Made by a program: the position numbers and the translations under genes. The notes under the pieces were generated by a model. The model made no database searches, had not been told where the DNA came from, and was given only the letters and a program-made list of their open reading frames with translations. A DNA stretch of 23,913 nt from positions 1 to 23,913 of the IMG/VR virus record IMGVR_UViG_3300021139_000151. One strand, written 5' to 3'. Origin of the DNA: a virus. Of the stretch, positions 2,380 through 20,774 are shown in pieces (position 1 is the stretch's first letter; each line of letters starts with the position of its first letter).

Positions 2380-2663
2380 TGAACGCTTCCTTTAACGAGA
2401 TACTAAAAGAAGTGCAGGAGATGCACGATAAGAAGTCACGTGACTATGGGCGACCTGATAACCCTTATTACAACATCAGACAAAGCCTTTCTTTCGGGAT
2501 ACCTTCATGGGTGGGTGCTTGTCTGAGAGCCAATGACAAGATGGGTCGTCTGCAATTAGCAGCACAAGGCTCAAAGTTGGCTAACGAGGGCATCGAAGAT
2601 TCTCTACTTGACATGATTACGTACCTTACAATTGCACTGGATGAGTTTAGGAATGGAAACTGA
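2379..2663 (+). CDS. MazG-like / DUF1599 (nucleotide-modification-associated) protein
   Basis: I selected the ATG at 2379 because it overlaps the preceding stop as TAATG; an upstream ATG at 2361 lies within the previous gene. The 94-aa product shows K-S-R-D-Y-G (19-24), W44-V-G, R-A-N-D-K-M-G-R-L (50-58) and E-D-S-L-L-D-M-I-T-Y-L (73-83). This order of acidic and basic residues in an all-alpha protein matches the DUF1599 / nucleotide modification associated domain 1 group, related to MazG-type nucleotide pyrophosphohydrolases. A likely role is nucleotide-pool control in phage DNA synthesis. Assignment is by motif memory rather than a search. Confidence 0.6.
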   Translation: MNASFNEILKEVQEMHDKKSRDYGRPDNPYYNIRQSLSFGIPSWVGACLRANDKMGRLQLAAQGSKLANEGIEDSLLDMITYLTIALDEFRNGN

Positions 2664-3183
2664 TTACAGGAAAGCGATCTGTTTTCTTATTGAAGATGGG
2701 TACATCACTGAAGAACAGGCAAGGGAAGCGGTCACCAAGGTTAGGGCTATTTCTCCTGATAAGGGTAAAGATAGTGAGTCTTGGACGGTCGCTCGAAGGC
2801 TGGTAAAAGAACTTAGGAAGGCGATAGTTGCCAATGGCAAAAAGCCTTTTAGAGAAAATGATACTGTTGCTGCTTGCTTTGAAAAGATGGTGCGCCTTGA
2901 TAAAAGAAAAGAAGAAGAAGCGTTGGTTTTAATTGAGTGGTGCGCAAGCCATGACTTCTGGAGCACGGTCATCTTGTCGCCAGAGAAGTTTCGTAAGCAC
3001 TATGAGACTATGTTGGCACAGCGTGAGCGAGATAATAAAAAACCCGTGGATAGAACCGAAGTCGTCTATCAACAGATAGAAGATTACGAAAACCGTCGGG
3101 CAGAAGAACTTGCGAAGCGTAGAGCAGAGTCGGTGCCTATGCCAGCAGGATTTAAAGATGCATTAAAGGGAGGAAGAAAGTGA
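2653..3183 (+). CDS. putative replication-associated protein (176 aa)
   Basis: The frame opens at 2632, but the ATG at 2653, overlapping the previous stop by 11 bases, is the more likely start. The N-terminus (Y-I-T-E-E-Q-A-R-E-A-V) may be a small helical domain. The C-terminal half has L-I-E-W-C-A-S-H-D-F-W followed by S-P-E-K-F-R-K-H-Y-E, resembling the tail seen in many phage and actinobacterial helix-turn-helix or DnaD-like replication proteins (W-x(5)-F-W...S-x-x-K-L-R-x-x-Y). The final 50 residues are a charged helix. A role as replication initiator or helicase loader would fit its place among DNA-metabolism genes, but the resemblance is weak evidence. Confidence 0.6.
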   Translation: METDYRKAICFLIEDGYITEEQAREAVTKVRAISPDKGKDSESWTVARRLVKELRKAIVANGKKPFRENDTVAACFEKMVRLDKRKEEEALVLIEWCASHDFWSTVILSPEKFRKHYETMLAQRERDNKKPVDRTEVVYQQIEDYENRRAEELAKRRAESVPMPAGFKDALKGGRK

Positions 3184-4048: not shown

Positions 4049-4405
4049 ATGAGCACTACCATTATCGGGAGACTCACAACCGACCCAGAAATCAAGTTCA
4101 TCAATAACGGCATGGCACTTGTTAACTTTAGTGTTGCCGTTAACCGTAAAAAGGGTGAAGAAGAATACGTTTCTTACTTTGATGTAACTGCTTGGGGCAC
4201 ACTAGCCCAAGGTGTTGCAGACTCACTCCACAAGGGTGACAGAGTTATCGTAAATGGGTTTCTAACTCAAGACCGTTACGAAAACAAGGAAGGCAAGACA
4301 GTGGGCAAGGTTATCCTTAACGCTCAGGCTGTTGGCCCCGACCTACAGTTCGCTACGGCAGAGGTACACTCAGCCAAGAAGAAGGAAGTAGAACCAGCCT
4401 TCTAA
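4049..4405 (+). CDS. ssb: single-stranded DNA-binding protein (SSB)
   Basis: The 118-aa protein is a one-OB-fold SSB: I-I-G-R-L-T-T-D-P-E at about 5-14, V-N-F-S-V-A-V-N-R at 25-33, D-V-T-A-W-G at 45-50, G-D-R-V-I-V-N-G at 63-70, then Y-E-N-K-E-G-K. It binds and protects single-stranded DNA during replication and recombination. The tail is short (E-V-E-P-A-F), still ending in an acidic-Pro-Phe peptide like the host-interacting SSB tip (D-D-I-P-F), although less acidic. The gene follows a candidate promoter and ends in a TAATG overlap with the second WhiB gene, so the two are likely co-translated. Confidence 0.93.
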   Translation: MSTTIIGRLTTDPEIKFINNGMALVNFSVAVNRKKGEEEYVSYFDVTAWGTLAQGVADSLHKGDRVIVNGFLTQDRYENKEGKTVGKVILNAQAVGPDLQFATAEVHSAKKKEVEPAF

Positions 4406-4791
4406 TGGTCGACTGGTCGGAAGCGAAATGTATTGGCATGACCAAACTTTTCTTTGACGACCGCATTAAAAAAATCAACAGAGCGAAATACATCTGTAAG
4501 AACTGCCCAATCAAAACGGAATGTCTTGACTGGGCTTTAGTTCATCGCGAAGCGTGGGGTGTGTGGTCAGGCTTGGACTATCACGAACTAAGAATCGTGG
4601 CTGTCTCACTTGGCTACACACCTCCCAATCGTAAAGAAGTAGAGCATGGCACCGAGCGCGGTTGGGCTTGGCATCGTAGGCAAAAGATGAAAGACAATGG
4701 GCACGAGACTTGCCAGCCGTGCATCGATGCATACAATCAAGCAACCCGCATCCGTGTGGCACGTTACCGCAAAAGAAAAAACAATACTTGA
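4405..4791 (+). CDS. WhiB-family regulator with extra C-terminal zinc-finger-like domain (second copy)
   Basis: Residues 1-60 are a WhiB domain: C9, C31, C34 and C40 (C-x21-C-x2-C-x5-C) plus the canonical turn G-V-W-S-G (52-56). Residues 80-128 add H-G-T-E-R-G-W-A-W-H-R-R and then C103-x2-C106, with a basic end (R-Y-R-K-R-K). This H/C-G-T-x2-G-[YW]-x2-H-x-R...C-x2-C motif is, as I recall, common in small actinophage proteins and probably binds zinc or DNA. The WhiB part should bind a 4Fe-4S cluster and the host sigma factor; the extra domain could give DNA or partner specificity. TAATG coupling to ssb suggests co-expression. It differs strongly from the first WhiB, so it is not a recent duplicate. 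Confidence 0.88.
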   Translation: MVDWSEAKCIGMTKLFFDDRIKKINRAKYICKNCPIKTECLDWALVHREAWGVWSGLDYHELRIVAVSLGYTPPNRKEVEHGTERGWAWHRRQKMKDNGHETCQPCIDAYNQATRIRVARYRKRKNNT

Positions 4792-4844: not shown

Positions 4845-5006
4845 ATGGAAGTAAAAACATTTGGCAAAGACAATACCGAAGTTCTTTGGTTTGCTGAATT
4901 AACCGAGTCTATGGTTGAGAACTTAGACGATGACGAACTAGAAGTCCTGATACGTCAACTTGATAAAGCAGTAGAAAGCATTTGCCAAGACTTTGGGGTT
5001 ATGTAA
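4845..5006 (+). CDS. hypothetical small acidic protein (53 aa)
   Basis: The start follows an excellent AAGGAGGGTGAG site and a candidate promoter. The product is acidic: residues 1-20 look like a beta segment, residues 20-50 a helix with E-N-L-D-D-D-E-L-E-V-L-I-R-Q-L-D-K-A-V-E. Not recognised. The stop overlaps the next start as TAATG. Its own promoter and strong translation signal suggest a well-expressed early protein, possibly a host-takeover or regulatory factor; this is inference. Confidence 0.65.
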   Translation: MEVKTFGKDNTEVLWFAELTESMVENLDDDELEVLIRQLDKAVESICQDFGVM

Positions 5007-5191
5007 TGCCTGATTCTATTACTGTTAAGATCCGTGGCGAGATGGTTAACTTCGTGTTTGAGGTTACACCTGAGCAATGGGCTGAGATAGACAAGTGCGT
5101 GAATGGTCATAACCGCCCAAGAAAAACTACACGCGGTACCAAAGACGTAGTAACATTGATTCGAGAGTCGATACGCCTTACCAAGGTGTGA
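5006..5191 (+). CDS. hypothetical small protein (61 aa)
   Basis: The start at 5006 is chosen for its TAATG overlap; an in-frame ATG at 4982 lies inside the previous gene. The product starts with a beta-rich half (I-T-V-K-I-R-G-E-M-V-N-F-V-F-E-V) and continues T-P-E-Q-W-A-E-I-D-K, ending with a basic helix (V-T-L-I-R-E-S-I-R-L-T-K-V). The strand-then-helices pattern is reminiscent of small ribbon-helix-helix proteins, but no clear family match is visible. It is the last gene of the AT-rich left module; a terminator-like structure follows about 50 bases on. Confidence 0.6.
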   Translation: MPDSITVKIRGEMVNFVFEVTPEQWAEIDKCVNGHNRPRKTTRGTKDVVTLIRESIRLTKV

Positions 5192-5329: not shown

Positions 5330-5566
5330 CCGCATCCGCCGCCGCGCTTTTGCCCGTGTTGCAGATCTATGGATTATTTTCGTATCCTATAAAGTCGATG
5401 GATTAGGTCGGATTTAGGCGGCTCGATGGCCGGCCGGTGGTGCTCGATGGGTGCTCGTTCAGGTCATTTAGTTTGGCCGCTATTAATTGCCACGAGGGCC
5501 ACGCTTAATCGCGCTACAATTTCAGCAGCGATACGGGCAGATGACCCGTGCGCGATTGGAGATGCG

Positions 5567-6793
5567 ATGAGTGAGGAACTCTCGATGATTGAAGCCGGCG
5601 ATGAGCCGGTGATGCTGTACGAGTGCGAGCGGTGCGGTTTGGCGTTCGATGACCAATGGGATGTATCGACCGTTCACGGAAGGACTACTCAGTTCGAGTG
5701 GTGCGATGATTGCCGCGAGGTGGACTCGTGGTTTTGCGCTGACTGCGACACGCTGTTCGCGTGCCTCGGTGTTAATGGTCATGGTGTGCCGTCCGTGTGC
5801 GTTAACGAGCACGACTGGGTGTGCGTGGATTGCCGCGACAATAACTACACCTATTGCGAAGGGTGCGACCAGTACCTACTTGACTACTGCGGCTGCGATG
5901 TGGAGGATGACTACGAGGAGGACTGCGGAATTATCTACTCTTACTCGTACAAGCCCGACCCTGTGTTTTGGCCAATTCAGCCGCGCTACTCAGTGCACCA
6001 GGTGGGCCGCTCGTTCTCGTTCTTTAACGATGCCTCTCGTGGTCGTATTCTCGATGAGAACGAACGCCTTCTCGACCGTTCACGCCTCGCGTATTTCGGG
6101 ATTGAACTCGAGGTCGAGGCTCGAGAGGGTGACCGGCTCGAACTCGCGGAGATGATGTCTACGGCGTTCGATAGTTCGGTGCTTTACCTTAAGGAGGACG
6201 GGTCGCTATCTCGTGGCTTCGAGATAGTCACTCATCCTCGGTCGCTCGACTCGTGGCAGCAGTTCGCACCGTCCTTCGGTGCGGCACTGTCGAGACTCGG
6301 TGCGGCTGGTGCTCGTGCGTGGTCGGAGTCATCGTGCGGATTGCACGTGCACGTCTCGCGTGTCGCGTTCAGTGGCCCGTCTCACGTTTCACGCTTTGCG
6401 CTGCTCTATGCACGTAACGAGACTGGGTTCGTGAATGTCGCGCGGCGTTCGTCTGGGTATGCCTCGTTCTCATCGCTGCGCGGTGGTGCTGGCGTGGTGA
6501 CTAAGTGTGCACGCTCGGAGTACGCCTCACACTCGGACGCGGTTAATCTGGGATGGCCTCAGACTGTGGAGGTGCGCATCTGGCGGCCATCGCTGGCGGT
6601 CGGGCGTGTGCTCGCATCGGTCGAGTTCGTTCACGCTTCGATGCAATACACGCGCGGCCTGAATAGTCGAGATGTGGTCGCAGGTGCGCTCGAGTGGGAT
6701 GAGTTCGCTCGTTACGTTCGAGACAATGCCGCCACGTATCCGCACGCGGTTCGTGTGCTCGATGGTGGCACGTTCGAGATGGTGGGTGCGTAA
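5567..6793 (+). CDS. glutamine-synthetase-like amidoligase with cysteine-rich N-terminal domain
   Basis: The frame opens at 5426, but the ATG at 5567 has GGAG five bases upstream and gives a 408-aa protein without the odd leader. Residues 18-120 form a cysteine-rich region with C-x2-C pairs at 20/23, 46/49, 57/60, 86/89 and 97/100, probably several zinc ribbons. Residues 175-360 match the phage/bacterial amidoligase family related to glutamine synthetase (PF12224-type): G-I-E-L-E-V-E (178-184), K-E-D-G-S-L (209-214), F-E-I-V-T-H-P (218-224), C-G-L-H-V-H-V-S-R (257-265) and V-E-V-R-I-W-R (334-340), supplying acidic metal ligands and the nucleotide-binding His/Arg. The family forms amide bonds between a carboxylate and an amine using ATP. 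The following class II glutamine amidotransferase could supply ammonia; this gene pairing is known for the family. The substrate (peptide, wall or protein) is unknown. Confidence 0.85.
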   Translation: MSEELSMIEAGDEPVMLYECERCGLAFDDQWDVSTVHGRTTQFEWCDDCREVDSWFCADCDTLFACLGVNGHGVPSVCVNEHDWVCVDCRDNNYTYCEGCDQYLLDYCGCDVEDDYEEDCGIIYSYSYKPDPVFWPIQPRYSVHQVGRSFSFFNDASRGRILDENERLLDRSRLAYFGIELEVEAREGDRLELAEMMSTAFDSSVLYLKEDGSLSRGFEIVTHPRSLDSWQQFAPSFGAALSRLGAAGARAWSESSCGLHVHVSRVAFSGPSHVSRFALLYARNETGFVNVARRSSGYASFSSLRGGAGVVTKCARSEYASHSDAVNLGWPQTVEVRIWRPSLAVGRVLASVEFVHASMQYTRGLNSRDVVAGALEWDEFARYVRDNAATYPHAVRVLDGGTFEMVGA

Positions 6794-6795
6794 TC

Positions 6796-7605
6796 ATGTG
6801 TCTACTTATCTGTGGCCTCAGTGCCTATGACGTGCCTACTGGCAGCGAACTCGAGCACGCTTGCAGGGCTAATCCTGACGGGTTCGGGTTCTCGGTGCTG
6901 TTTAACAATGAGGCCGGCGTGCGCGATTTATTGACCGTCCGCGGGATGGACTCAGCGGTGATCCGCAGCTCTTTTTTGGAGTCGTTGACCAGGCTGAATG
7001 ACTCAGTCATCGCGTGGATGTTTCATGCTCGCATCGCGACTCATGGTGCGGTGAATGTTGACGGATGTCATCCGTTCGCGGTGGATGGTTCACCTCGCAC
7101 GGTGCTCGGTCACAATGGCGTGCTGCCGGTTCGCATCGCTAAGAACGACTGGCGGTCGGACTCACGAGTGTTTGCTGAGGACTATCTGCCGGCACTCGGT
7201 GGCGTGGCTGCCCTCGGTTCCGCGGTCGTATTCGATGTGCTCGATGGGTTCGTGTCTGGTTCAGGTTCTAAGTGCGTAATTCTCAGTGCTGAGGATGACC
7301 ACGAGCCGGTAACAATTCTCGGTGAGTCGCTCGGACATTGGCGCGGCGATGTGTGGTTCAGTAATAACTCATACAAGCCGTACACGCCGGCATACCGGAT
7401 TATGGGTCAGCCCTACTCGGTATTCGGTGCACTCGATGACTACGACTCGTTCGAGCCGGTCGATGTGTCGATGCTCACGCCATGCATTAACGCTGAGTGT
7501 GAGGCGATGCTCGATGATGAGTGGTGCGATGCGTGCGGCACGTGCCAAGAGTGCTGGCTCGGTTCGTGGGATTGCCAGTGCGACTATGCGGAGGTGATGC
7601 AATGA
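6796..7605 (+). CDS. class II (Ntn-type) glutamine amidotransferase with C-terminal zinc module
   Basis: The 269-aa protein starts two bases after the amidoligase stop. Cys2 follows the initiator Met and is the expected N-terminal nucleophile of class II amidotransferases. Also visible are N-P-D-G-F-G-F (26-32), H-A-R-I-A-T-H-G (77-84, with the substrate Arg), C-H-P-F (91-94), G-H-N-G-V-L (105-110, oxyanion Asn-Gly) and S-D-S-R-V-F (121-126, Asp122), all in family order. It should hydrolyse glutamine to ammonia or carry out a related Ntn amidohydrolase step. Residues 230-262 add eight cysteines (C230, C235, C244, C247, C250, C253, C260, C262), a zinc module resembling the amidoligase N-terminus. 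The two proteins probably act together. A free-standing peptidase role cannot be excluded. Confidence 0.88.
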   Translation: MCLLICGLSAYDVPTGSELEHACRANPDGFGFSVLFNNEAGVRDLLTVRGMDSAVIRSSFLESLTRLNDSVIAWMFHARIATHGAVNVDGCHPFAVDGSPRTVLGHNGVLPVRIAKNDWRSDSRVFAEDYLPALGGVAALGSAVVFDVLDGFVSGSGSKCVILSAEDDHEPVTILGESLGHWRGDVWFSNNSYKPYTPAYRIMGQPYSVFGALDDYDSFEPVDVSMLTPCINAECEAMLDDEWCDACGTCQECWLGSWDCQCDYAEVMQ

Positions 7606-7805
7606 GGGCGAACGATGGCTACTCAGTGCGTACGTGGTGCGGCCTGGTGCTGAGTGTGGTCACGGGCTACGTGGTCGCATTAAAGGTTCACTACGCGGTC
7701 ACGGTGCATTGGTCGATGCCTCACCAGTCCGACCCGTTCGCGTGCATCGTGTGGCTCGTGGTCACGGTGGCACTGGCTCTCGTAGTGGTGGCATGTGATG
7801 AGTGA
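7602..7805 (+). CDS. two-helix membrane protein (67 aa)
   Basis: The ATG at 7602 overlaps the amidotransferase stop (ATGA), preferred over the earlier in-frame start at 7521 inside that gene; GGAGGTG lies just upstream. Two hydrophobic segments, about 11-28 and 46-65, are separated by a short loop with H-Q-S-D-P. A small integral membrane protein is predicted. Its overlap with the amidoligase/amidotransferase pair suggests it belongs to the same system, perhaps anchoring or exporting the product; this is inference. A holin-like fold is also possible from topology alone. Confidence 0.65.
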   Translation: MRANDGYSVRTWCGLVLSVVTGYVVALKVHYAVTVHWSMPHQSDPFACIVWLVVTVALALVVVACDE

Positions 7806-7971
7806 ACTCGACCGTGTAAATAAGGTTTTACGTGCTCAGCATTGTCAGTTGCTCATGGTTCAGATTGACTCCGAGGGCTCGTTCGTTATTCATTTTGACG
7901 CTGAGGCTTCAGGCTGCGGCTATCTATGCATGACCAAGGATGGGGAGGTTCACTACATCCTGCCCGATTAA
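7798..7971 (+). CDS. hypothetical small protein (57 aa), last gene of the island operon
   Basis: The start overlaps the membrane-protein stop by eight bases. The product has a short helix then alternating hydrophobic residues suggesting beta strands (L-L-M-V-Q-I-D...F-V-I-H-F-D...Y-L-C-M-T) and three cysteines (C16, C40, C44). Not recognised. It shares the GC-rich composition and is followed 26 bases later by the intrinsic terminator, so it ends the four-gene island operon. Confidence 0.6.
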   Translation: MSELDRVNKVLRAQHCQLLMVQIDSEGSFVIHFDAEASGCGYLCMTKDGEVHYILPD

Positions 7972-7997
7972 TTCACTACCTATTAGACACGCTAGAG

Positions 7998-8021
7998 AGC
8001 CGGCCTTCGGGCCGGTTTTTT
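7998..8021 (+). terminator. intrinsic terminator after the island operon
   Basis: CCGGCC (8000-8005), loop TTCG (8006-8009), GGCCGG (8010-8015), then six T (8016-8021), extendable by G-U and A-U pairs. A stable UUCG tetraloop on a GC stem with a U-tract is a textbook rho-independent terminator. Confidence 0.92.
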
Positions 8022-8241
8022 AGTGCCTGTAGTTCAGTCCGGATGGCTGGTGCGGCGGCTCTAGGTGCCTTGTAGCGCGGCTGGTGGCAGTGGCCCGATG
8101 ATGGCTCGGTGCTCGATGTGTGGTGCTGGTGGTCATGTGGTGGTGCTGCTGGTGCGGCCTCAGTGGTGCCTAGATTTTGATCTTTGGCATGCTGGTTCAG
8201 TGATGACGTGAGAGATAAGCCCATCCCTCAGCATCCCTTAT

Positions 8242-8442: not shown

Positions 8443-8864
8443 AAAAAACTTTTCAAACCGATCAGGTGAGAACCCTCATTATTCTTTCTTAATCCCCCTT
8501 AAAAGCACTATCTTTAATACTCAGGCTTTGCTTACAGGTATCCCCGCATCACCTAACCAAAAAAGAAAGACTTAAGTATCTTAAATGGGACATCCACCCG
8601 TCATGAACACGAGGCTTGTCCGATGCGTTTAGAAGTACTTGGACATTTCACCAATGGCTTATGGTGCGTGTTCGACCGAATACCGCTCTAACCGGCTAAC
8701 TCCGGCGAGTATCTTACGTACAGGGCATTTACATGCATGGCAGTAAGACTCACACTCCGGGGGGACTTGCACCCACGACTACTCACATCGGTAGTACATA
8801 CAGGATACCACACTTTGCGCAACATGTTACGCACCCTGGTGTCTACTATGTGTATGCTTGGTGT

Positions 8865-8978
8865 ATGTGTTCTACCTGTGGCTGCGGCCGACCTAAAGAC
8901 AAGCACGGCGAAAAGACTATTGCTGCTGCCAATAAGAAGTATTCTAAAGTAAAGCCTAAAGCAAAGAAAAAGAAGTAA
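8865..8978 (+). CDS. small cysteine/lysine-rich protein (37 aa)
   Basis: The frame is open from 8733, but the protein-like part begins at the ATG at 8865: M-C-S-T-C-G-C-G followed by K-D-K-H-G and a lysine-rich tail (K-x-K-P-K-A-K-K-K-K). Short proteins starting M-C-S-T-C-G-C with a basic tail exist in actinobacteria and phages, as I recall. Three clustered cysteines may bind metal, and the tail suggests nucleic-acid contact. No clear Shine-Dalgarno precedes the start, so translation may be leaderless or begin upstream at 8733 (81 aa). Confidence 0.5.
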   Translation: MCSTCGCGRPKDKHGEKTIAAANKKYSKVKPKAKKKK

Positions 8979-8985
8979 CTACCCC

Positions 8986-9138
8986 GTGTTTCTTGTACCC
9001 AAGATTTTGCGAGACACAGACCCTTCTACTTGGCTTTTTAATCCCAAATACAGACGCAGGGTGCGCCGTCGACGTAGAGGTATTACGATCACCGTTAACG
9101 GCCAGGACTGGCAAGCATGGGTAGAGTCCCAGCGCTAG
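8986..9138 (+). CDS. small arginine-rich protein (50 aa)
   Basis: The GTG start lies 7 bases after the previous stop, without a strong ribosome site. The product has W-L-F-N-P-K-Y followed by R-R-R-V-R-R-R-R-R-G and then I-T-I-T-V-N-G-Q-D-W-Q-A-W-V-E. The arginine cluster would bind DNA or RNA, and the end looks like a compact beta hairpin plus helix. Not recognised. Protein-like composition and position after another basic microprotein support it, but the start is uncertain. Confidence 0.45.
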   Translation: MFLVPKILRDTDPSTWLFNPKYRRRVRRRRRGITITVNGQDWQAWVESQR

Positions 9139-9813: not shown

Positions 9814-11733
9814 ATGGCAGTAACACCAGTACAACGTAAGAAGTACTTTGAGGCACGCACGGCGGGGTTCTCTATTGCCGAAAGTGCTCGCAAAGCAAAG
9901 TTCTCAGAGGCTACTGCCTACCGTGTAGAAAAGGCTGCTCAGAATCTACGTGCCGATGAAGGCATTGATAGTTCTGCCAGCAACTACCGAGAATTAAAGA
10001 AAGAAGCCAAACTCTCTGGGCCGATACCGTATGACAGATTGTCAGACGAAGCCAAGTTAGCACTAGAAGATTTTGGTTATTTTCGTGAACGTTACTTTGG
10101 CCGTGTGTCTACGCCATGGCAAGAAGAAGCCGGTATTGCTTTAGTAGAATTACTTGAGTCGCCAGACAAAGAATACGTGGTTATGAACATGCCACCTGGT
10201 TCTGGTAAAACCACATTGCTACATGACATTACGTGTTGGGTCATTTGCCGTAATCGTTCTACTCGTCTTTTGACTGGTAGTGCGACTATGAGCCTAGCCA
10301 AACGAAACTTGATGCGTGTGCGTAGATCACTAGAACGTGTTATTCCAGAACAAGCAGATGAGATGCTTAAAGAACGTGGACAAGCACTTGATGCTATTAC
10401 GACAATGGCTTACGACTTTGGTCGCTTTAAGCCGTTGGAAAAAGAACTGTGGACTAACGAAGCGTTTATTGTTATGCAGCCAGAGGAATCTGGTGCTATT
10501 AGTGAAAAGGAGCCAACCCTAAGTGCCTACGGTATGGATAGTGGTTTCATCGGAGGACGCTTCGATGGCTGTTTCTGGGACGACCTTGTGGACCCTCGCA
10601 AGGTCCGTTCTTCAGAAATGCGAGAAGCAATGGAAGACTGGTACCAAGACGTTGCAGAGACTCGACTTGAACCAGCAGGTATGCTTGCTCTTATTGGTCA
10701 GCGCCTGGCTCCTGATGATCTTTACCGCTTCGCTTTAGACATGGTGCAGCCTCTTGATGAGGAAGCCGAAGAATCCATAGATGAATTAACAGAAGAAGAA
10801 GCAGCATTGCTTCGACGTGACAAAAAATACAAACACCTAAAATACAAGGCTCATTATGAAGAAAAGTGTTCAAAGGATAATCATAAGCGTTCGGCTGCTG
10901 CTTACCCCGAAGGGTGTCTCTTGGACCCGCGCCGTCTTGGATGGCGAGACATTTCTAACCTTATGTCCAACCGAGGAGAACGCTTTGCTGTTGTATACCA
11001 GCAGGAAGACCTGGCGTTAGATGAAGTATTGGTCAGAAACGAATGGGTGTTTGGGCATGGAAACAGCCCAGGGTGCATTGACAAAGACCGTGACAGGTGG
11101 GAGATTCCACCAGGGCTTAATCCCTCAGATTGCATCGTGGTGGCTACAGCCGACCCATCTCCAACAAACTACTGGTCTATCCAGTGCTGGCTTTACCACA
11201 AAGATTCAGAGCAACGTTTCTTGCTCGACCTCATTAGAGCCAAGATGGAAGCCCCGCAGTTCTTAGAGTATAACTACAACCAAGGGGAATTTACTGGGGT
11301 TATGGAAGATTGGCAGCGATTGTCAGTTTCTTTAGGATTCCCAATTCAGGTATGGGTTGTGGAACAAAATGCAGCCCAACGATTCATGTTGCAGTATGAC
11401 CATTTCAAACGATGGAGGCAACTGCGAGGGGTTGAGATTATTCCTCACAACACCACCAGCAATAAATCTGATGCTGAATACGGTGTTACGACAATTTCTC
11501 AACATTGGAAGTTTGGTCGTGTAAGATTGATGGGTAAGGGTGAAGGTAAAATTCGGTCAATGAAATTAATTGATGAAGTGACCAGATACCCTCATGGACG
11601 TACGGATGACTGTGTAATGGCGGAATGGTTCTTTGAATGGAACCTTCCAAACATTTACGTGCCTCAAACGAAGTCCGTACAAGCCTGGCGACCCAAATGG
11701 GTACGAAGTACTCAATTAGCGAATTTGAGGTAA
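9814..11733 (+). CDS. terL: terminase large subunit
   Basis: The 639-aa protein has a helix-turn-helix-like N-terminus (about 12-45: F-S-I-A-E-S-A-R-K-A-K-F-S-E-A-T-A-Y-R-V), then an ATPase domain with Walker A M-P-P-G-S-G-K-T-T (126-134, Lys132), Walker B C-F-W-D-D (253-257) and A-L-I-G-Q-R (292-297) as the coupling segment. The C-terminal RNase-H-like nuclease shows A-D-P-S-P (Asp447), V-V-E-Q-N (Glu517) and T-D-D-C (Asp598/599), the acidic metal-binding triad. It pumps DNA into proheads and cuts concatemers. The N-terminal HTH suggests that it may recognise DNA itself, as expected if no separate small subunit exists. Portal follows directly. Confidence 0.95.
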   Translation: MAVTPVQRKKYFEARTAGFSIAESARKAKFSEATAYRVEKAAQNLRADEGIDSSASNYRELKKEAKLSGPIPYDRLSDEAKLALEDFGYFRERYFGRVSTPWQEEAGIALVELLESPDKEYVVMNMPPGSGKTTLLHDITCWVICRNRSTRLLTGSATMSLAKRNLMRVRRSLERVIPEQADEMLKERGQALDAITTMAYDFGRFKPLEKELWTNEAFIVMQPEESGAISEKEPTLSAYGMDSGFIGGRFDGCFWDDLVDPRKVRSSEMREAMEDWYQDVAETRLEPAGMLALIGQRLAPDDLYRFALDMVQPLDEEAEESIDELTEEEAALLRRDKKYKHLKYKAHYEEKCSKDNHKRSAAAYPEGCLLDPRRLGWRDISNLMSNRGERFAVVYQQEDLALDEVLVRNEWVFGHGNSPGCIDKDRDRWEIPPGLNPSDCIVVATADPSPTNYWSIQCWLYHKDSEQRFLLDLIRAKMEAPQFLEYNYNQGEFTGVMEDWQRLSVSLGFPIQVWVVEQNAAQRFMLQYDHFKRWRQLRGVEIIPHNTTSNKSDAEYGVTTISQHWKFGRVRLMGKGEGKIRSMKLIDEVTRYPHGRTDDCVMAEWFFEWNLPNIYVPQTKSVQAWRPKWVRSTQLANLR

Positions 11734-13638: not shown

Positions 13639-14061
13639 ATGCCAAGAACAGGTAAGGGCGGTTCACGCCAAGGTACGCCAGGTCAAGCATACGGAAACCG
13701 TACAGATCTGAACATGCCAATGAGTACAGTACCAAATCAAGAGTATGGCAAAGCCGCAGCGCAAAAGGCTGCACAAGCCGCAGTGCCAATGGGTGCTTCA
13801 CCAGTTGCACAGCCAGCACCAAGCATGCCAATCCCAAGTGGCAATGTTCCAACACCAGGTTCTATGAACTTTCTTGGTGCAACAGAACGACCAATGGAAC
13901 CAGTACAAGCAGGTCTACCTTCAGGCCCAGGAGCAGGTCCAGAAGCCATAGGTATGCCACGTAATACAATTTCAAACGCATTACAAAATCTTTTGCGTGA
14001 CCCTAACGCAAATTCAGGTACATACGAATTGGCCGCCACTGCTAGAGCCTTTGGACTCTAA
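13639..14061 (+). CDS. Pro/Ala-rich virion-associated protein (140 aa)
   Basis: It starts three bases after the portal stop and ends in a TAATG overlap with the giant gene. The N-terminus G-G-S-R-Q-G-T-P-G-Q-A-Y-G-N-R-T-D-L-N looks conserved, as small actinophage proteins after portal often carry a similar P-G-x-x-Y-x-N-R-T-D-L peptide (from memory). The middle is disordered (Pro, Ala, Met, Gly), and the end has a helix (N-T-I-S-N-A-L-Q-N-L-L-R). Composition is like the portal tail, hinting at shared interaction. Function unknown; probably a head-completion or internal protein. Confidence 0.7.
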   Translation: MPRTGKGGSRQGTPGQAYGNRTDLNMPMSTVPNQEYGKAAAQKAAQAAVPMGASPVAQPAPSMPIPSGNVPTPGSMNFLGATERPMEPVQAGLPSGPGAGPEAIGMPRNTISNALQNLLRDPNANSGTYELAATARAFGL

Positions 14062-17000
14062 TGCCTTCGATTAATACTACAGAAATACTTGGCAAGCCTA
14101 ATACACAAGGCATTGCTGGTTTAATTGAAACTAACCTCCAAGGAGCCATCAAAGGCTACTCTGGTGAAAACGCTGACCAGCAAGCAAGAATTTTAGCGTA
14201 TTACAAGAATAACCCTAATGCAATGAACAACCCTGCTCAGGTGTATGGTCTTGCTACTTCGTTGAGACAAGATCCTCACACTATTACTCAGGCGTTGAAA
14301 TACCTTTCGTTATACAACGAAGGAACAAAGCACATTTACGAACAAGCCAATGGCAGCAACCTAGGCCATCAAATTTGGCACGGCATTACTTCTGTTGGTA
14401 ACACTATTTGGGATTCACTTACAAGTGGAGAAAACTGGAAAAACGCTTTTGCTCGTCCAGTAATGAAATACGTTAATTTTTGGACACAAGGTGACGTTGG
14501 ACAAAAAATAATTAATGCAGACGTAAGCGGCGCTAAAGGTGCTGCCGATGCCGTTGTCGGACTTGGAAAAGTAAGTAGCAATGTTCTTAATAGGGTTGAT
14601 ACAACTCTTGCAGAACTTGTTGGTGCACAAGGTATTAACGGATACAAAGATGCTTGGCGAACAGTTAACAATTTTGCACAAGCGCCTATTAATTTAATTA
14701 ACCCATTTAGTGACCAAAATGGCTATCAACTGATGGCTCACACTATGGCATACTACGAATCTCTTGCCAATCAAAAAGGATGGGCATACGCTCTGGGTCA
14801 CATGCTTCCAAGCATCGCCGCTATGTACGCAAGTGATGGATTCTTAGCACCTGGTATTGCTGGCGAAACAGGAACAAGCGAGTACTTGTCTGCAATGTCC
14901 GAAGCGGAACAAGCATTAGCCAAGGGTGAAAAACTAACTGTTGAACAGAAAAAGTTAATTGACGCATCTCCAAAAGTTAAAGAATTAGAACGACAAGCAA
15001 AAATGGAAGGGCCACGAGGTCCTGTTGCAAACATAGCGGACAAAGTTTCTACTCCTTTGGGCGGTATTGCAAGACTTGCAAAGATGGCTGGCAAGCCAAT
15101 GACAGATGTCAAGTTAAATGCTCTTTACTTGCTTAACCAAGAAACAGCAAAAATAGAACACCATCAATTGTGGGAAGACACCAAGGGTGGTGTAGTAATT
15201 GGTTCGGATGGCAAACCTAAAGATTTAGGTCGCCAGACACTTGAATACTTTGGCATGAATCCAACAGGTGCTTTCTTTGACACCACATCAGGTCTTTTTG
15301 ACATTTACACAAAGTACCTTGGAGCGGACCCACTAGGTGCTGCTGGTAAAGTATTTGCCGCTGCACGTTCATTTGAAGGTCTATCACCACGTCTTGCTGA
15401 CTTCTTAGAGACAACACGCAAATCATTGTTTGACATGAAGGGCAACAGAATTACTGGTGCACAATTTAAAAACGATGCACTACTTGGCCAATCGTACGGA
15501 CGTGCCGCTGGAAAACTGAATCAAATGATGGGTGGCCTAAGTATTTGGTTCCGTGGTCTTGGTATCCACAACGCGGGCGATATCTATGCAACATCAAGAT
15601 TAGCCAACGTTGCTACTTCGTATCAATATATGGCAACGCACACTGGTTCTGAAATTGCTCGTGCCTACCGTGGTGTGTATTCAGATAAGGCTATTAAATT
15701 GCTTGACAAAGCCAAAACGTTTAACGATGTGGTTGACGTTCACGCAATGCTTGCTGATGGCTACGGTATGGTGCACGACGTTGCTCCAACGCTAGGCATG
15801 TATGGCAAGATTAAGACTGTTCTTGTTGATGCAAACAAAGTCATGGACGACATGGCTATTTCTGCAATTCTCAATGAAGACATGCCTGTACTTAAGCGTT
15901 GGACCAAAGCGTTCAAGGAACGTGGCTATGATGCAACTCCGGACAGCGCAATGTTTATTGCCTCTGCAAAAGCTGACCTTCGTTGGCGCACAATCTTTAG
16001 ACGTTGGTGTTTTACTCAGTTAAGTAAATCGCCAATGTACTACAGCGAAGTTTTGCAACGCATGGAAACCCATTCTATTGTTCCTGGTGACTACAACGCT
16101 ATTGCCGCTATTCAAGACATGGCACGCGGTGCGTTTGTACCAGAACGAGAAGTAGTTGCAATGGGCGACACTTTGTACGCAACCTCTACACCAGAAGATT
16201 ACGTTACCGCTTACCGCAATTGTCTTTACAACATTGTAATGCGTAATGCTACTGCCGGTATGAGACAGACAGAACTTGACTCAGTATCAAAGATGGTAGA
16301 AAACCACATTTGGGATGAAGTTGTACGCATGACTGGTCTTGATGGTGGTGGTGCGTTAAAGCGTGTTTATACTGCCGGTCCTAACGGTTATGAACTATCT
16401 AAACTTGTAGATGCAGAAGGTAAAGAGTTTACCGCTGCAAACGGTACTCAGCAACTTGGTCACTTAAAGATGCCTCTTGCTAAAGACATTAGAAACCTGT
16501 CTCGCACAATTCGTAATGAAATTACCAAGGTAACCCCAGACACTCGAAACATTCACGACTTCACTGCTTGGGATAACGAGATTCGTTCTATTGCCACAGA
16601 ACGCGGTTTGTTAAAAAATGAAGTTAGCAAATATGGTAAAGAAATTGCTAAGTACCGTTCAAAAGGTTTTAAGGACTCTAAGGGTTACGAAGTACTTAGT
16701 GAGCGTGGTATTAAATCTTACGATAAAACAGTTGAAGAAATTGACAAACTTGCTAACGCTACCTATGCAACTCCAGATTTAGGTCAAGAATTTACTAATT
16801 TCTACAACACCCTTCACACTAAATACAAAGATGTTGCACAGCAAATTGAAGACCACAAAGCCGCCATGGAAGAACTTGCTCATCGTAGGGCAAACCCTGC
16901 AATGGAGTTTGATACTCCTGCACCCAAGCCATTGTCGCCACAACACGTTGAATCTCTAAAGGGTCAACTGCACGCATACAACGATCACCTGATGTCTGCC

Positions 17001-20000
17001 AACCTTCTTCTTAACCCAGAACAAATTGTCAAAGAAGAACAAGCAATGCTATGGGCAAGAGAACAAGCAGGCATGTTTGGTCCTGGCGATGTTGCTAAAA
17101 CAAAGATTGCGGAACGTTTTAAGAACAACCTTGACGAAATTAAAAAAGACCGCCCTAACTACAGAAGCAATTTTCAAGTTGTAGTTGACGGACTTAACAG
17201 AACACTAAGCCTTGTATTCGTACCATTGGCGCTTCTTTCTGGCCGTTGGGCAATGCACGTAGGTTTGTCAGAAGGTGCCCTTAACGCTTTCCGCCAAGGC
17301 CCATTTAAGTTGTTTGAACAATCACTTGCTAAATCTATTGCTAAGCACGAACTTAACGGTATTCCACTTGCCGAGGGTGGGCTTCGCGACAAGCAAGTAA
17401 GCCTTCTTCGTGACGTAGTTGCTGGAACAATTATGGGCATGGAAAGCAGTGTCCTTAGAGCAATGAATCCTGAAAAGGCTGACCGTCTTATTGGTGATGC
17501 TGTATCACTACACCTTCGCCACGATGGATGGAAGGGTGGGGTTCACGGTAACGATACCGTTATGCCCGACATGCCTGGAAAGACGGAAGACATATTTACC
17601 ATTAATGGTGAAGGAACAGTATCTCAAGGAAAAGCAGTTCGCACTGACGACATGAGAGTTTTAAACCCAAACACAAGTGGGTACTCAACTGCTTTGTCTG
17701 AGTGGGCAAACATGATTACTAACGACAAGATTTTTGCTCCTGTTGCAAAAGAACTACACGAAAAAATTGTTGTTGAAGGACATGAATTCTGGGGTACGCG
17801 AGGCAGCGACACTTGGCGCAAAGACATTGCAGATAATCTTTTGCCAGCAGCGCGTAAGGCTATTAATGATTTAACACCAGAAGAAGCCGCTCGCATGCGT
17901 CAATTTGATGGCATCAACGCTAACCCAAACCTTTCTTCAATGAGTATGGAAGACCGTGAATTGCTTAAGGTGCAACGTGAGGCTGAAACCGGACGTGCAG
18001 AAGCACTTCAGTCAATGTCACCAGACCTTCGTTACATTCAAGATTCAATTGACAAGTTCCATGGATCAGGTGGAAAAATTGAATCGTTCCCAAGCGGTAA
18101 AACATCACCAGCAGATTTGGCTAAATTAGAAAAAGACTTTGCTCCTCTTAAACAATTTGAACAAGAATGGCGAGCAAGTAAAAAAACATGGGACCCTGAA
18201 AGTGGTACGTCTGAAGGACGTAGAGCAGGTGTTATTAACGCTGCCTTTGAACTTCATCGTGATAAAGGTCTTAATCTTTTAGTAGCAAGAGATTCAGAAG
18301 GTAAAATCACTGGTGCTTTGTCTTGGTACGAGACTGGTTCAATTCATGTTCAAACCGTTGGTTCTTTGGGTGGCGGTGCTGGTGCCGCATTGGAGCACGA
18401 ACTTGCAACACAAATTGTTGAAAAGTATGGTTATGGCGTTAAGCATAGGTATGACATTGAATTTGGATCATGGCCTTACCACGAAAAAACAGGCAAAATA
18501 CCAACTGCTAATTGGGAAGGCAAAACATCAGAAGCGATGTTTAGCGCTGAGCAAATTGAAAAGATTGCTGCTCTTAAGCCAATGCCATCAGCACTTGGTA
18601 TGTCTGCTGACGAAAAGTTCCGTCTTGCTTCTAAAGAAGATGCCGCACGTCGTGCTGTAGAAAACATCATGGGTACATTTTTTGGAACTGCTGGTTCTGA
18701 AGGACACGTACTTCACACAGAACTTCTTGACCACGTTGTTTCAGGTACAGTTCCAGGGCCAAAAGAAATGACTGAATTGATTGCTCGCATGGGTGATTCA
18801 GCACCTCGTGACATTCCTGCACGTGGATTAGAGGGCATTAGTAGTTTGGGTGGATTTGCCAAGACTGTTATTAGCCGAGTTTCTGAACAAGGTCACGATA
18901 AGATTCTTGGACCAATGGTTAACTGGTTGGTTCGTAAGCCAGTGTACCTTGGTGATTACCACAGGGAAATGGAAATATTGCGTCCATTGATTAACAACGG
19001 AACGCTTCACGAAGCACAAGCAGAAATTATTGCAGAAAACAAGGCTCTTATGCGTATGAGTCGTTTTGTCCACAACCCTAAAGATAAGACGATGTTTGAA
19101 ACAAACATGCGTGTTGTTGCTCCGTTCTACTTCGCTAAAAACCAAGCATGGCGACGTGCTTTCCGTTTGGCCAAAACAGATCCAGGTGCAGTTGAAAAGT
19201 ACATGAAGTTATGCCTTGCTGTTACTGACTACATCTCGACAACATCTGATAAGAGTGCAATCCCAGGTACTCACATTCCTGGTACAGAATTTATAGGTAA
19301 TATTGCTGGGCTTAACCCGTTGTTCAACACTGCTGCTGGTTTTGGAAAAATGGCATTTGGTCTGACAGGTAGTGCCGGTTCAGTTACATCTATTGTTCCA
19401 ACAGGTGACCAGATGGGATTTGGAAACATGCTTGGTGAATTTATTCGCCCACCATGGGGACCGCTTATTACTGTCCCTGCCAAATGGATTCGTGACTACA
19501 CAGCCGCTAACCACTCACCAGTTGCACAAAAATGGATTAATGGATTCCTTGGTAAGGCATCTTCATACTCCTCTTGGACACGAGATGTATTGCCGTCTGG
19601 AACATTACAAGACGTATTGGAATTAGGAGCAGGTATGTTTAACATGCCTAACTCAACCATTCAGTCAACTGAAAATCAAATGCTTAACAATGCCGTAGAC
19701 AACCTATTTGCTCAACAACGCAAGATTGTAGAAAAAGAATATGACTACACTGGCATGACTCAAGCACAGCGTGACATGATGGTTCGTGGTCTTACCGACC
19801 AGGCCGTAAGTAACATTCTTAACAACCCTGAACAACGCCAAGCGTTCCTTGACCGTGCTAAGCAAGGCGCAATGATGATGTCGTTTGTTAAAACAGTACT
19901 TAACTTCTTTAGTCCTTTGGCGCTTAGTCTTAATGCAACGTTCTCAAAGCAGCCTGAGTTTGACAAAATTCTTGCTGAAAAGAATCCAGATGGAACACCT

Positions 20001-20774
20001 AAGTACACAACAATTGAAGCGGCTGACATCTTTGCTCAAAAGTTTCCAGACAACATTACTGACCTTATTTCTCACACAAAGTCAACGTACTCTAATTTCC
20101 CTGAAACCCAAAGTGCTGTTGACTTGTTAACAAATAACCCTGGAACAGTGCGAGACTACCCGTATGGTTCTGCAATGCTTGTGAATCGTAGTTCAAACTA
20201 TTCACCACAGGCATACCAGTTAGAATTGTCTATGAATCTTCGTAGTCGTGAAGCACCTAGTGAATATCTAAGTTCTGCACTATACGGTATTGGTAATGAC
20301 TATTACTACAATTTCCTAAAGCCTGAGATTATGGCTATACCTGGTGCTACCGAGCAAGTAATGATGCGTCTTGCCGATGGTTCTTCCAAAGCAACAACAG
20401 AACTTAATTACAATGGTTTTAAGCAATTGGCTGCAATGGCTAAGTCATACGGTGATACCACTAACCCAATTTGGTACGACCAATTTACAGGTGCGGCAAA
20501 AAAGAATGTTGCCAACAAGGCTCTTGAAGATATGACCAAGATGATTAAAGACCCTAACGTTACTGCTATTTCTCAAGACGACAAAGATAAGTTTCAAGGT
20601 CTTATAGATCAGTACAATGGTTTCCTAAAGGCTTACCGTAATCTAACTGGTGGCGGTGCATCGGCCTTGTCTAATTCATGGTATGCCTTCTGTGAGGATG
20701 CAGCGGCATCTGAATATTACGCAAATCAATCATATTTTATTAAATCAGTTCTACAGGCAATGCCTAACAAGTAA
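14061..20774 (+). CDS. giant internal/ejected virion protein (2237 aa), polyvalent type, with GNAT-like segment
   Basis: One uninterrupted frame encodes 2237 residues between the portal and scaffold genes. Most is helical and charged, with a hydrophobic stretch at about 1048-1065 (T-L-S-L-V-F-V-P-L-A-L-L). About 1365-1500 resembles a GNAT acetyltransferase fold: L-L-V-A-R-D-S-E-G-K-I-T-G-A-L-S-W (near 1404-1420), then V-G-S-L-G-G-G-A-G (near 1433), like the acetyl-CoA pyrophosphate loop, and an E-x-x-L helix. About 1665-1720 has M-R-V-V-A-P-F-Y-F-A-K-N-Q, similar to C-terminal domains of phage large polyvalent proteins (LPD38-like). Such proteins are packaged and ejected with DNA, and can carry enzymes acting early in infection. 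Position argues against a tail tape measure. No RNA-polymerase or transglycosylase motif was recognised. Function of the rest is unknown. Confidence 0.75.
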   Translation: MPSINTTEILGKPNTQGIAGLIETNLQGAIKGYSGENADQQARILAYYKNNPNAMNNPAQVYGLATSLRQDPHTITQALKYLSLYNEGTKHIYEQANGSNLGHQIWHGITSVGNTIWDSLTSGENWKNAFARPVMKYVNFWTQGDVGQKIINADVSGAKGAADAVVGLGKVSSNVLNRVDTTLAELVGAQGINGYKDAWRTVNNFAQAPINLINPFSDQNGYQLMAHTMAYYESLANQKGWAYALGHMLPSIAAMYASDGFLAPGIAGETGTSEYLSAMSEAEQALAKGEKLTVEQKKLIDASPKVKELERQAKMEGPRGPVANIADKVSTPLGGIARLAKMAGKPMTDVKLNALYLLNQETAKIEHHQLWEDTKGGVVIGSDGKPKDLGRQTLEYFGMNPTGAFFDTTSGLFDIYTKYLGADPLGAAGKVFAAARSFEGLSPRLADFLETTRKSLFDMKGNRITGAQFKNDALLGQSYGRAAGKLNQMMGGLSIWFRGLGIHNAGDIYATSRLANVATSYQYMATHTGSEIARAYRGVYSDKAIKLLDKAKTFNDVVDVHAMLADGYGMVHDVAPTLGMYGKIKTVLVDANKVMDDMAISAILNEDMPVLKRWTKAFKERGYDATPDSAMFIASAKADLRWRTIFRRWCFTQLSKSPMYYSEVLQRMETHSIVPGDYNAIAAIQDMARGAFVPEREVVAMGDTLYATSTPEDYVTAYRNCLYNIVMRNATAGMRQTELDSVSKMVENHIWDEVVRMTGLDGGGALKRVYTAGPNGYELSKLVDAEGKEFTAANGTQQLGHLKMPLAKDIRNLSRTIRNEITKVTPDTRNIHDFTAWDNEIRSIATERGLLKNEVSKYGKEIAKYRSKGFKDSKGYEVLSERGIKSYDKTVEEIDKLANATYATPDLGQEFTNFYNTLHTKYKDVAQQIEDHKAAMEELAHRRANPAMEFDTPAPKPLSPQHVESLKGQLHAYNDHLMSANLLLNPEQIVKEEQAMLWAREQAGMFGPGDVAKTKIAERFKNNLDEIKKDRPNYRSNFQVVVDGLNRTLSLVFVPLALLSGRWAMHVGLSEGALNAFRQGPFKLFEQSLAKSIAKHELNGIPLAEGGLRDKQVSLLRDVVAGTIMGMESSVLRAMNPEKADRLIGDAVSLHLRHDGWKGGVHGNDTVMPDMPGKTEDIFTINGEGTVSQGKAVRTDDMRVLNPNTSGYSTALSEWANMITNDKIFAPVAKELHEKIVVEGHEFWGTRGSDTWRKDIADNLLPAARKAINDLTPEEAARMRQFDGINANPNLSSMSMEDRELLKVQREAETGRAEALQSMSPDLRYIQDSIDKFHGSGGKIESFPSGKTSPADLAKLEKDFAPLKQFEQEWRASKKTWDPESGTSEGRRAGVINAAFELHRDKGLNLLVARDSEGKITGALSWYETGSIHVQTVGSLGGGAGAALEHELATQIVEKYGYGVKHRYDIEFGSWPYHEKTGKIPTANWEGKTSEAMFSAEQIEKIAALKPMPSALGMSADEKFRLASKEDAARRAVENIMGTFFGTAGSEGHVLHTELLDHVVSGTVPGPKEMTELIARMGDSAPRDIPARGLEGISSLGGFAKTVISRVSEQGHDKILGPMVNWLVRKPVYLGDYHREMEILRPLINNGTLHEAQAEIIAENKALMRMSRFVHNPKDKTMFETNMRVVAPFYFAKNQAWRRAFRLAKTDPGAVEKYMKLCLAVTDYISTTSDKSAIPGTHIPGTEFIGNIAGLNPLFNTAAGFGKMAFGLTGSAGSVTSIVPTGDQMGFGNMLGEFIRPPWGPLITVPAKWIRDYTAANHSPVAQKWINGFLGKASSYSSWTRDVLPSGTLQDVLELGAGMFNMPNSTIQSTENQMLNNAVDNLFAQQRKIVEKEYDYTGMTQAQRDMMVRGLTDQAVSNILNNPEQRQAFLDRAKQGAMMMSFVKTVLNFFSPLALSLNATFSKQPEFDKILAEKNPDGTPKYTTIEAADIFAQKFPDNITDLISHTKSTYSNFPETQSAVDLLTNNPGTVRDYPYGSAMLVNRSSNYSPQAYQLELSMNLRSREAPSEYLSSALYGIGNDYYYNFLKPEIMAIPGATEQVMMRLADGSSKATTELNYNGFKQLAAMAKSYGDTTNPIWYDQFTGAAKKNVANKALEDMTKMIKDPNVTAISQDDKDKFQGLIDQYNGFLKAYRNLTGGGASALSNSWYAFCEDAAASEYYANQSYFIKSVLQAMPNK

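Follow-up and report, generated by a model that had tools for sequence, protein, structure and literature searches.

Phages that carry an amidoligase (AL) next to a class II glutamine amidotransferase (GAT) are already known, the primary papers on this idea being reportedly those of Iyer et al. in 2009 and, for phage Marvin, of Mageeney et al. in 2012. The locus described here is a membrane-linked variant of these pairs. In phiEco32, LUZ24, RIO-1 and other phages, a cassette that is also known already combines a PF14395 protein, a PF12224 amidoligase, a class II amidotransferase, an ATP-grasp protein and a GGACT protein; it is proposed to modify peptidoglycan against superinfection, and the amidotransferase of such wall cassettes is read as a peptidoglycan-degrading enzyme (PMC5498523). 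AL-GAT pairs are reported without a functional test in Methylophilales (OM43) phages and in Marvin, where the pair is suggested to serve secondary metabolism (PMC10580990). In a Pseudomonas phage, missense changes appeared in both genes of an amidoligase/aminotransferase pair, gp22 and gp23, in both lines evolved under biofilm selection (PMC11450229). Two enzyme systems of other contexts are also comparable. MurT/GatD, the lipid II amidotransferase, would work alike, as it joins a glutaminase to an ATP-using ligase that amidates a wall carboxylate, but it is not homologous to AL-GAT, GatD being of class I and MurT Mur-ligase-like (PMC3267633). EgtA/EgtC of ergothioneine synthesis resemble the pair in combining a GS/GCS-like ligase with a class II Ntn enzyme. 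For the phage AL-GAT pair, we came across neither a described substrate nor an experimental study in the literature.

The window, which is the whole stretch of DNA analysed here, is the complete IMG/VR record IMGVR_UViG_3300021139_000151, a virus fragment of 23,913 nt, and a search of its whole nucleotide sequence against the phage collection gave no match. Its left side has genes for Erf, a DnaD-like protein, RusA, SSB and WhiB, and its right side has terminase and portal genes. The WhiB-like regulator (4405..4791, plus strand; PF02467, 57.8 bits) suggests that this freshwater phage has an Actinomycetota host. Between the end of this gene and the terminase module, whose large subunit TerL is encoded at 9814..11733 on the plus strand (phrog_38, 2e-53), lies a cassette with spacers of about 0.75 kb on each side. 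It is formed by four plus-strand ORFs: AL (5567..6793, 408 aa), GAT (6796..7605, 269 aa), MEM, which has two hydrophobic segments by hydropathy (7602..7805, 67 aa), and SML, a soluble, lineage-specific protein (7795..7971, 57-58 aa, from GTG 7795 or ATG 7798). Successive genes are spaced by +2, -4 and -11 nt. An intrinsic terminator with a GC stem, a UUCG loop and a U run (7990..8025, plus strand) closes the cassette with a folding energy of -26.7 kcal/mol (z = -5.9); it is absent from the list of a simple terminator scan, probably owing to pairing of its T run with the 5' arm. The cassette has a GC content of 0.56-0.60 and a reversed AT skew, against 0.43-0.47 GC in the flanks. The earlier note on this DNA had described overlapping or nearly touching genes with a common base composition, a strong terminator at their end and a cargo position between early and virion modules, and the locus is indeed built in this way. 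PADLOC defence models matched none of the four proteins.

The AL frame opens at 5426; GGAG precedes 5567, and the protein of the related phage L011 aligns from the Met at 5567 with 78% identity. The profile search of 5567-6793 against PF12224 (Amidoligase_2), which the note had proposed, gives 22.9 bits for a cut-off of 22, a marginal match that covers positions 47-141 of 245 only. Among 20-26 homologues, the motifs G178-x-E180-x-E182, K209, D211-x-S213, G217-x-E219, G258-x-H260-x-H262, R294, N327 and T333-x-E335-x-R337 are invariant, and we take them to be the GS metal and ATP ligands; the note had named a lack of such ligands as fatal to its reading, and these GS-type motifs are kept throughout. 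The AlphaFold (AF2) model of AL (mean pLDDT 74), which like that of GAT was built from alignments of locus sequences only, without database-phage rows, matches YbdK, GS and Dop/PafA with E-values of 2e-4 to 1e-2. The carboxylate-amine ligase YbdK ranks first, and the matches also include GCS. The YbdK and GS matches (E about 2e-4 to 4e-4) have a TM of about 0.35, which is a fold-level likeness only. By its motifs and predicted fold, AL is classified as a GS-fold amidoligase. Its N-terminal region is Cys-rich and zinc-ribbon-like, almost every viral or bacterial relative is likewise Cys-rich there, and a search of the AL sequence against the PDB returned only zinc-finger-type chance matches (E>=0.02). 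At least 577 AL relatives were confirmed by a collection scan with AL. In five loci, a second and shorter amidoligase paralogue, which lacks the Cys-rich region and largely keeps the catalytic motifs, is encoded about 0.3-0.5 kb upstream of AL-GAT (L023:3145-3957, L034:3632-4447, L035:3617-4423, L042:3134-3940 and L027:3742-4392).

GAT begins with Met-Cys, which gives the N-terminal Cys2 of class II (Ntn) enzymes, and throughout the viral set there is no variation at C2, H77-x-R79-xx-T82-x-G84, H106-N107-G108 and D122. It is nearer to GATase_4 than to GATase_6. The proposed class II profile search of 6796-7605 succeeded only in part: the protein alone reaches 18.2 bits with GATase_4, under the cut-off of 23, whereas the family profile finds the GlmS glutaminase (6e-10) and PurF (about 1e-4) in the PDB. 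The AF2 model (pLDDT 79) has GlmS/GFAT as top matches, followed by EgtC and PurF. Motifs and predicted fold mark GAT as a divergent class II glutamine amidotransferase, so the amidoligase and class II amidotransferase identities given in the note stand, with catalytic residues intact. The C-terminal tail of GAT is Cys-rich. This tail and the Cys-rich region of AL are both zinc-binding-like and could dock proteins, and AL is related to the Pup ligase/deamidase fold, so the pair might amidate or tag side chains of a host or phage protein. Such a function is improbable, as the Dop and PafA matches of the AL model are weaker than those of YbdK and GS and no Pup-like gene was seen with the pair.

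One of the two strongest rival explanations is chemistry of the EgtA/EgtC type, in which AL would join an acid such as glutamate to an amine and GAT would act as an EgtC-like gamma-glutamyl hydrolase that removes it. The YbdK and GCS matches of AL and the EgtC match of the GAT model are consistent with this chemistry, as is the reading of the cassette amidotransferase as a degradation enzyme (PMC5498523). EgtC removes glutamate, whereas in sequence the window GAT stands nearer to GlmS; its family profile matches GlmS and PurF and does not match EgtC in the PDB at E<=0.1. A PF06094 (GGACT, gamma-glutamyl cyclotransferase) partner is found in 0 of 29 carriers, with LUZ24 positive. The partner swap of the viral contig L053 also stands against removal of glutamate, and on balance this chemistry is unlikely.

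In L053, a GAT-family protein (E 3e-27) overlaps the gene of WbuX, an N-acetyl sugar amidotransferase (TIGR03573, 280.7 bits, cut-off 203.2), instead of an amidoligase. Amidotransferases of the WbuX family take ammonia from a glutaminase partner, so this pairing favours GAT as an ammonia donor, with one locus as the evidence. Next to the WbuX and GAT genes come genes like PseC/LegC, PseB and NeuB and then a portal gene, which ties one GAT relative, at this single locus, to putative surface-sugar synthesis. The region L053:449-5314 looks like a phage-borne nonulosonic-acid pathway with a class II glutaminase upstream of the portal gene; such pathways usually use a class I glutaminase.

AL and GAT are rarely found apart. 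Among 46 viral loci found by GAT, AL lies directly upstream in 44, and the exceptions are L053 and the cut contig L012; GAT lies directly downstream in 77 of 80 viral loci found by AL, and the other three stop at a contig edge. The median gap between the genes is 3 nt in viral loci. Tree distances of the two proteins correlate at 0.78, with values of at most 0.23 in 1000 permutations, a correlation that could arise from adjacency or linkage alone. Double or triple AL-GAT pairs occur at 31 loci, in which first and second copies are separate types for both AL and GAT. No fused AL-GAT protein was present among the loci examined, and a search for a third gene or a precursor peptide conserved in every carrier found none.

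The pair is abundant in viral metagenomes, the collection being scanned with tighter alignment subsets since the full alignments were too diverse. It is present in Mycobacterium phage Marvin and its relatives, in OM43 phages, in a podovirus from Manatee Spring and on OM43-type and Bacteroidota-type viral contigs, the Bacteroidota label meaning similarity to the Prevotella MAG locus L200. Bacterial copies are carried by mycobacterial plasmids and by actinobacterial genomes, mostly of Nocardia, where they adjoin genes such as DUF2637 and DUF4192; the chromosomal copies are presumably located on mobile elements. The bacterial neighbours are only partly identified, longest-ORF gene calls being unreliable in GC-rich bacterial loci. 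Strong GAT matches (E < 1e-45) are found in 28 of the 78 Nocardia-group genomes searched, about one third, and usually there are two of them about 2.1 kb apart. Nocardia loci including L136, L139, L145 and L155 have tandem AL-GAT-AL-GAT arrays with position-specific types and patchy presence. On a mycobacterial plasmid (L204:2002-6744) and in Mycolicibacterium (L198:2-4660), a protein of about 1550-1580 aa with methyltransferase and SNF2-type helicase regions, which resembles defence or anti-restriction helicases, is encoded directly upstream of AL-GAT.

The window shares with the phiEco32/LUZ24/RIO-1 cassette an adjoining PF12224 amidoligase and class II amidotransferase, the vicinity of early genes and the superinfection hypothesis. 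It differs in its amidotransferase, which in the phiEco32/LUZ24 cassette is a GATase_6 protein of 510-675 aa, and in the ATP-grasp, GGACT and COOH-NH2 ligase partners of that cassette. PF14395 (COOH-NH2 ligase) was found in 0 of 26 window-type carriers, with LUZ24 and phiEco32 positive as controls; the window tested for these partners is a 24-kb fragment, and phage ATP-grasp proteins barely match Pfam. Family profiles of the window-type pair match the phiEco32/LUZ24 cassette proteins weakly. By gene content, the window cassette is a reduced, membrane-linked variant and not a member of the phiEco32/LUZ24 type. Marvin gp105-gp106 and their relatives (19 records) are homologous AL-GAT pairs arranged as in the window (29-36% and 31% identity), but belong to another phage type, have no two-helix MEM and lie near the genome end. 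In Marvin and its relatives the pair is followed by an ATGA-coupled ORF of 81 aa (L002:8897-9142 in Marvin) with one N-terminal hydrophobic segment, which is unannotated in Marvin and annotated as hypothetical in relatives. The OM43 phages MEP401/402 share with the window the order AL and then GAT, their ORFs overlapping, but their AL has a long N-terminal extension and no membrane partner was found (PMC10580990).

MEM overlaps GAT by 4 nt (ATGA), and its membrane insertion is predicted from hydropathy alone. BLAST finds only near relatives, and equivalents were sought as small ORFs with hydrophobic segments that start at the GAT stop. In the AL clade of the window, which comprises 14 lineages (support 0.986), a coupled ORF with two segments is present in 13 and one with a single segment in the other, whereas 0 of 69 viral lineages outside the clade have a two-segment ORF there (Fisher 2.6e-14), although most of the 14 lineages are one phage group with related flanking genes and are not fully independent. 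Control stops in the same loci had a two-segment ORF in 3 of 154 cases, and with the clade test this rules out MEM as a chance ORF. When lineages are grouped by GC and not by the tree, the MEM association gives only a weak signal. The MEM proteins of L062, L066 and L071 are recognisably homologous by alignment, with TG-(Y/W) and (S/N)DP-x-A motifs, and the remaining clade equivalents are alike in size, place and topology only. The membrane component of the operon, as claimed in the note, is real in this clade. MEM is missing from most AL-GAT carriers, namely low-GC lineages and bacterial elements, so tethering at the membrane is no general feature. Only the near-identical phages L008, L009, L010 and L012 share SML, which is deleted in L011. 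A single conserved system of four genes is ruled out by this dispensability: of the neighbourhood conservation that the note had asked about, that of AL with GAT and, clade-wide, of MEM was found, and that of SML was not. The conserved core is AL followed by GAT.

The cassette is exchanged between closely related phages. L011 is 97-100% identical to the window across nearly all compared flanks. Inside the approximate limits of the exchanged GC-rich segment, about 5470 to 8000 (plus strand) as drawn from identity, GC and AT skew, the nucleotide identity drops from 92-100% to mostly 58-90%, and beyond them it rises to 98-100%. SSB and WhiB have synonymous divergences of 0.013 and 0.053, against 0.73 for AL, 0.85 for GAT and 0.38 for MEM. 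L010 has a GAT of the second allele (98.5% to L011) and the MEM and SML of the window, so crossovers fell at differing points. In wider relatives the terminase is 81-94% identical and AL 33-45%, no higher than where the terminase is only 58% identical. Several lineages, those of L062, L063/L064, L066, L068 and L070, have the cassette in opposite orientation with respect to WhiB and/or terminase, and no convincing flanking inverted repeats able to explain this were found. It looks like a portable, exchanged module that forms a GC-rich island between near-identical phages. A dN/dS of 0.21-0.25 between the cassette alleles (Nei-Gojobori, one allele pair) indicates purifying selection. Inert or decaying cargo could account for the patchy Nocardia distribution, but it is hardly credible with this ratio of about 0.2, with all catalytic residues kept and with hundreds of relatives.

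Tentatively, we prefer to read AL and GAT as a membrane-tethered, glutamine-dependent amidotransferase that acts on an envelope carboxylate and is used in conflict. GAT would split glutamine by its Cys2 and hand the ammonia to AL, whose GS-type active site would use metal ions and ATP to activate a carboxylate and then amidate it. Residues and folds argue strongly for ammonia production and amidation. We infer that the two proteins form a complex and transfer ammonia within it, and that they serve in conflict. In the window's phage clade, MEM, translationally coupled to GAT, may hold this complex at the membrane, in which case the substrate would most likely be a carboxylate linked to the membrane or the wall, such as the stem peptide of a peptidoglycan precursor or an acid of an envelope glycan; the MEM association hints at both the tethering and such a substrate. 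The altered envelope might block competing phages or dampen host defence. This envelope reading may be right in view of the GS and glutaminase residues, the folds, the near-obligate pairing, MEM, the swapping and the occurrence in either orientation; against it, no substrate gene travels with the pair. No one wall chemistry suggests itself for carriers whose hosts extend from Actinomycetota to probable Bacteroidota and OM43.

In the other of the strongest rivals, what the pair makes or modifies is soluble and not part of the envelope, such as a small metabolite, a peptide or a nucleotide or DNA base. Most lineages are without a membrane partner, the cassette adjoins replication genes and the Marvin pair has been suggested for secondary metabolism (PMC10580990). 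A soluble product is nevertheless doubtful, since no conserved precursor peptide or base-modification gene was recognised beside the pair and the coupled membrane protein recurs in the clade of the window. The idea of a wall- or envelope-directed role or superinfection exclusion, raised in the note, gains from the coupled membrane protein, the exchange of alleles and the WbuX pairing in L053, while the substrate is still putative. Should the pair amidate wall precursors, phages would with it encode a counterpart of MurT/GatD. A bolder and rather unlikely extension is that AL, GAT and MEM are three subunits of a membrane-anchored amidotransferase, encoded by allelic, orientation-free cassettes that phages of freshwater Actinomycetota exchange in order to alter a carboxylate of the envelope, each allele excluding different competing phages; if true, it would be a modular enzyme for superinfection exclusion, in contrast to the membrane proteins and glycosyltransferases known as excluders. 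The long-noted phage pair now has three handles, namely the clade-specific membrane partner, the partner swap that favours ammonia supply and a natural experiment of two alleles about 75% identical in phages otherwise mostly 97-100% identical.

Variability alone is no proof of conflict, because the DnaD-like gene and a 2237-aa protein vary comparably and the cassette is not unique in this respect. The DnaD-like helicase loader (window 2632-3183) is 37-51% identical where the terminase is 81-94% identical and appears to be another exchanged gene. The 2237-aa protein (window 14061-20774) changes very fast, and its pieces are 20-47% identical in related phages. Two short segments at 4870-5020 and 8820-9060, in or near both cassette spacers, also have low identity where the phages compared are otherwise near-identical.
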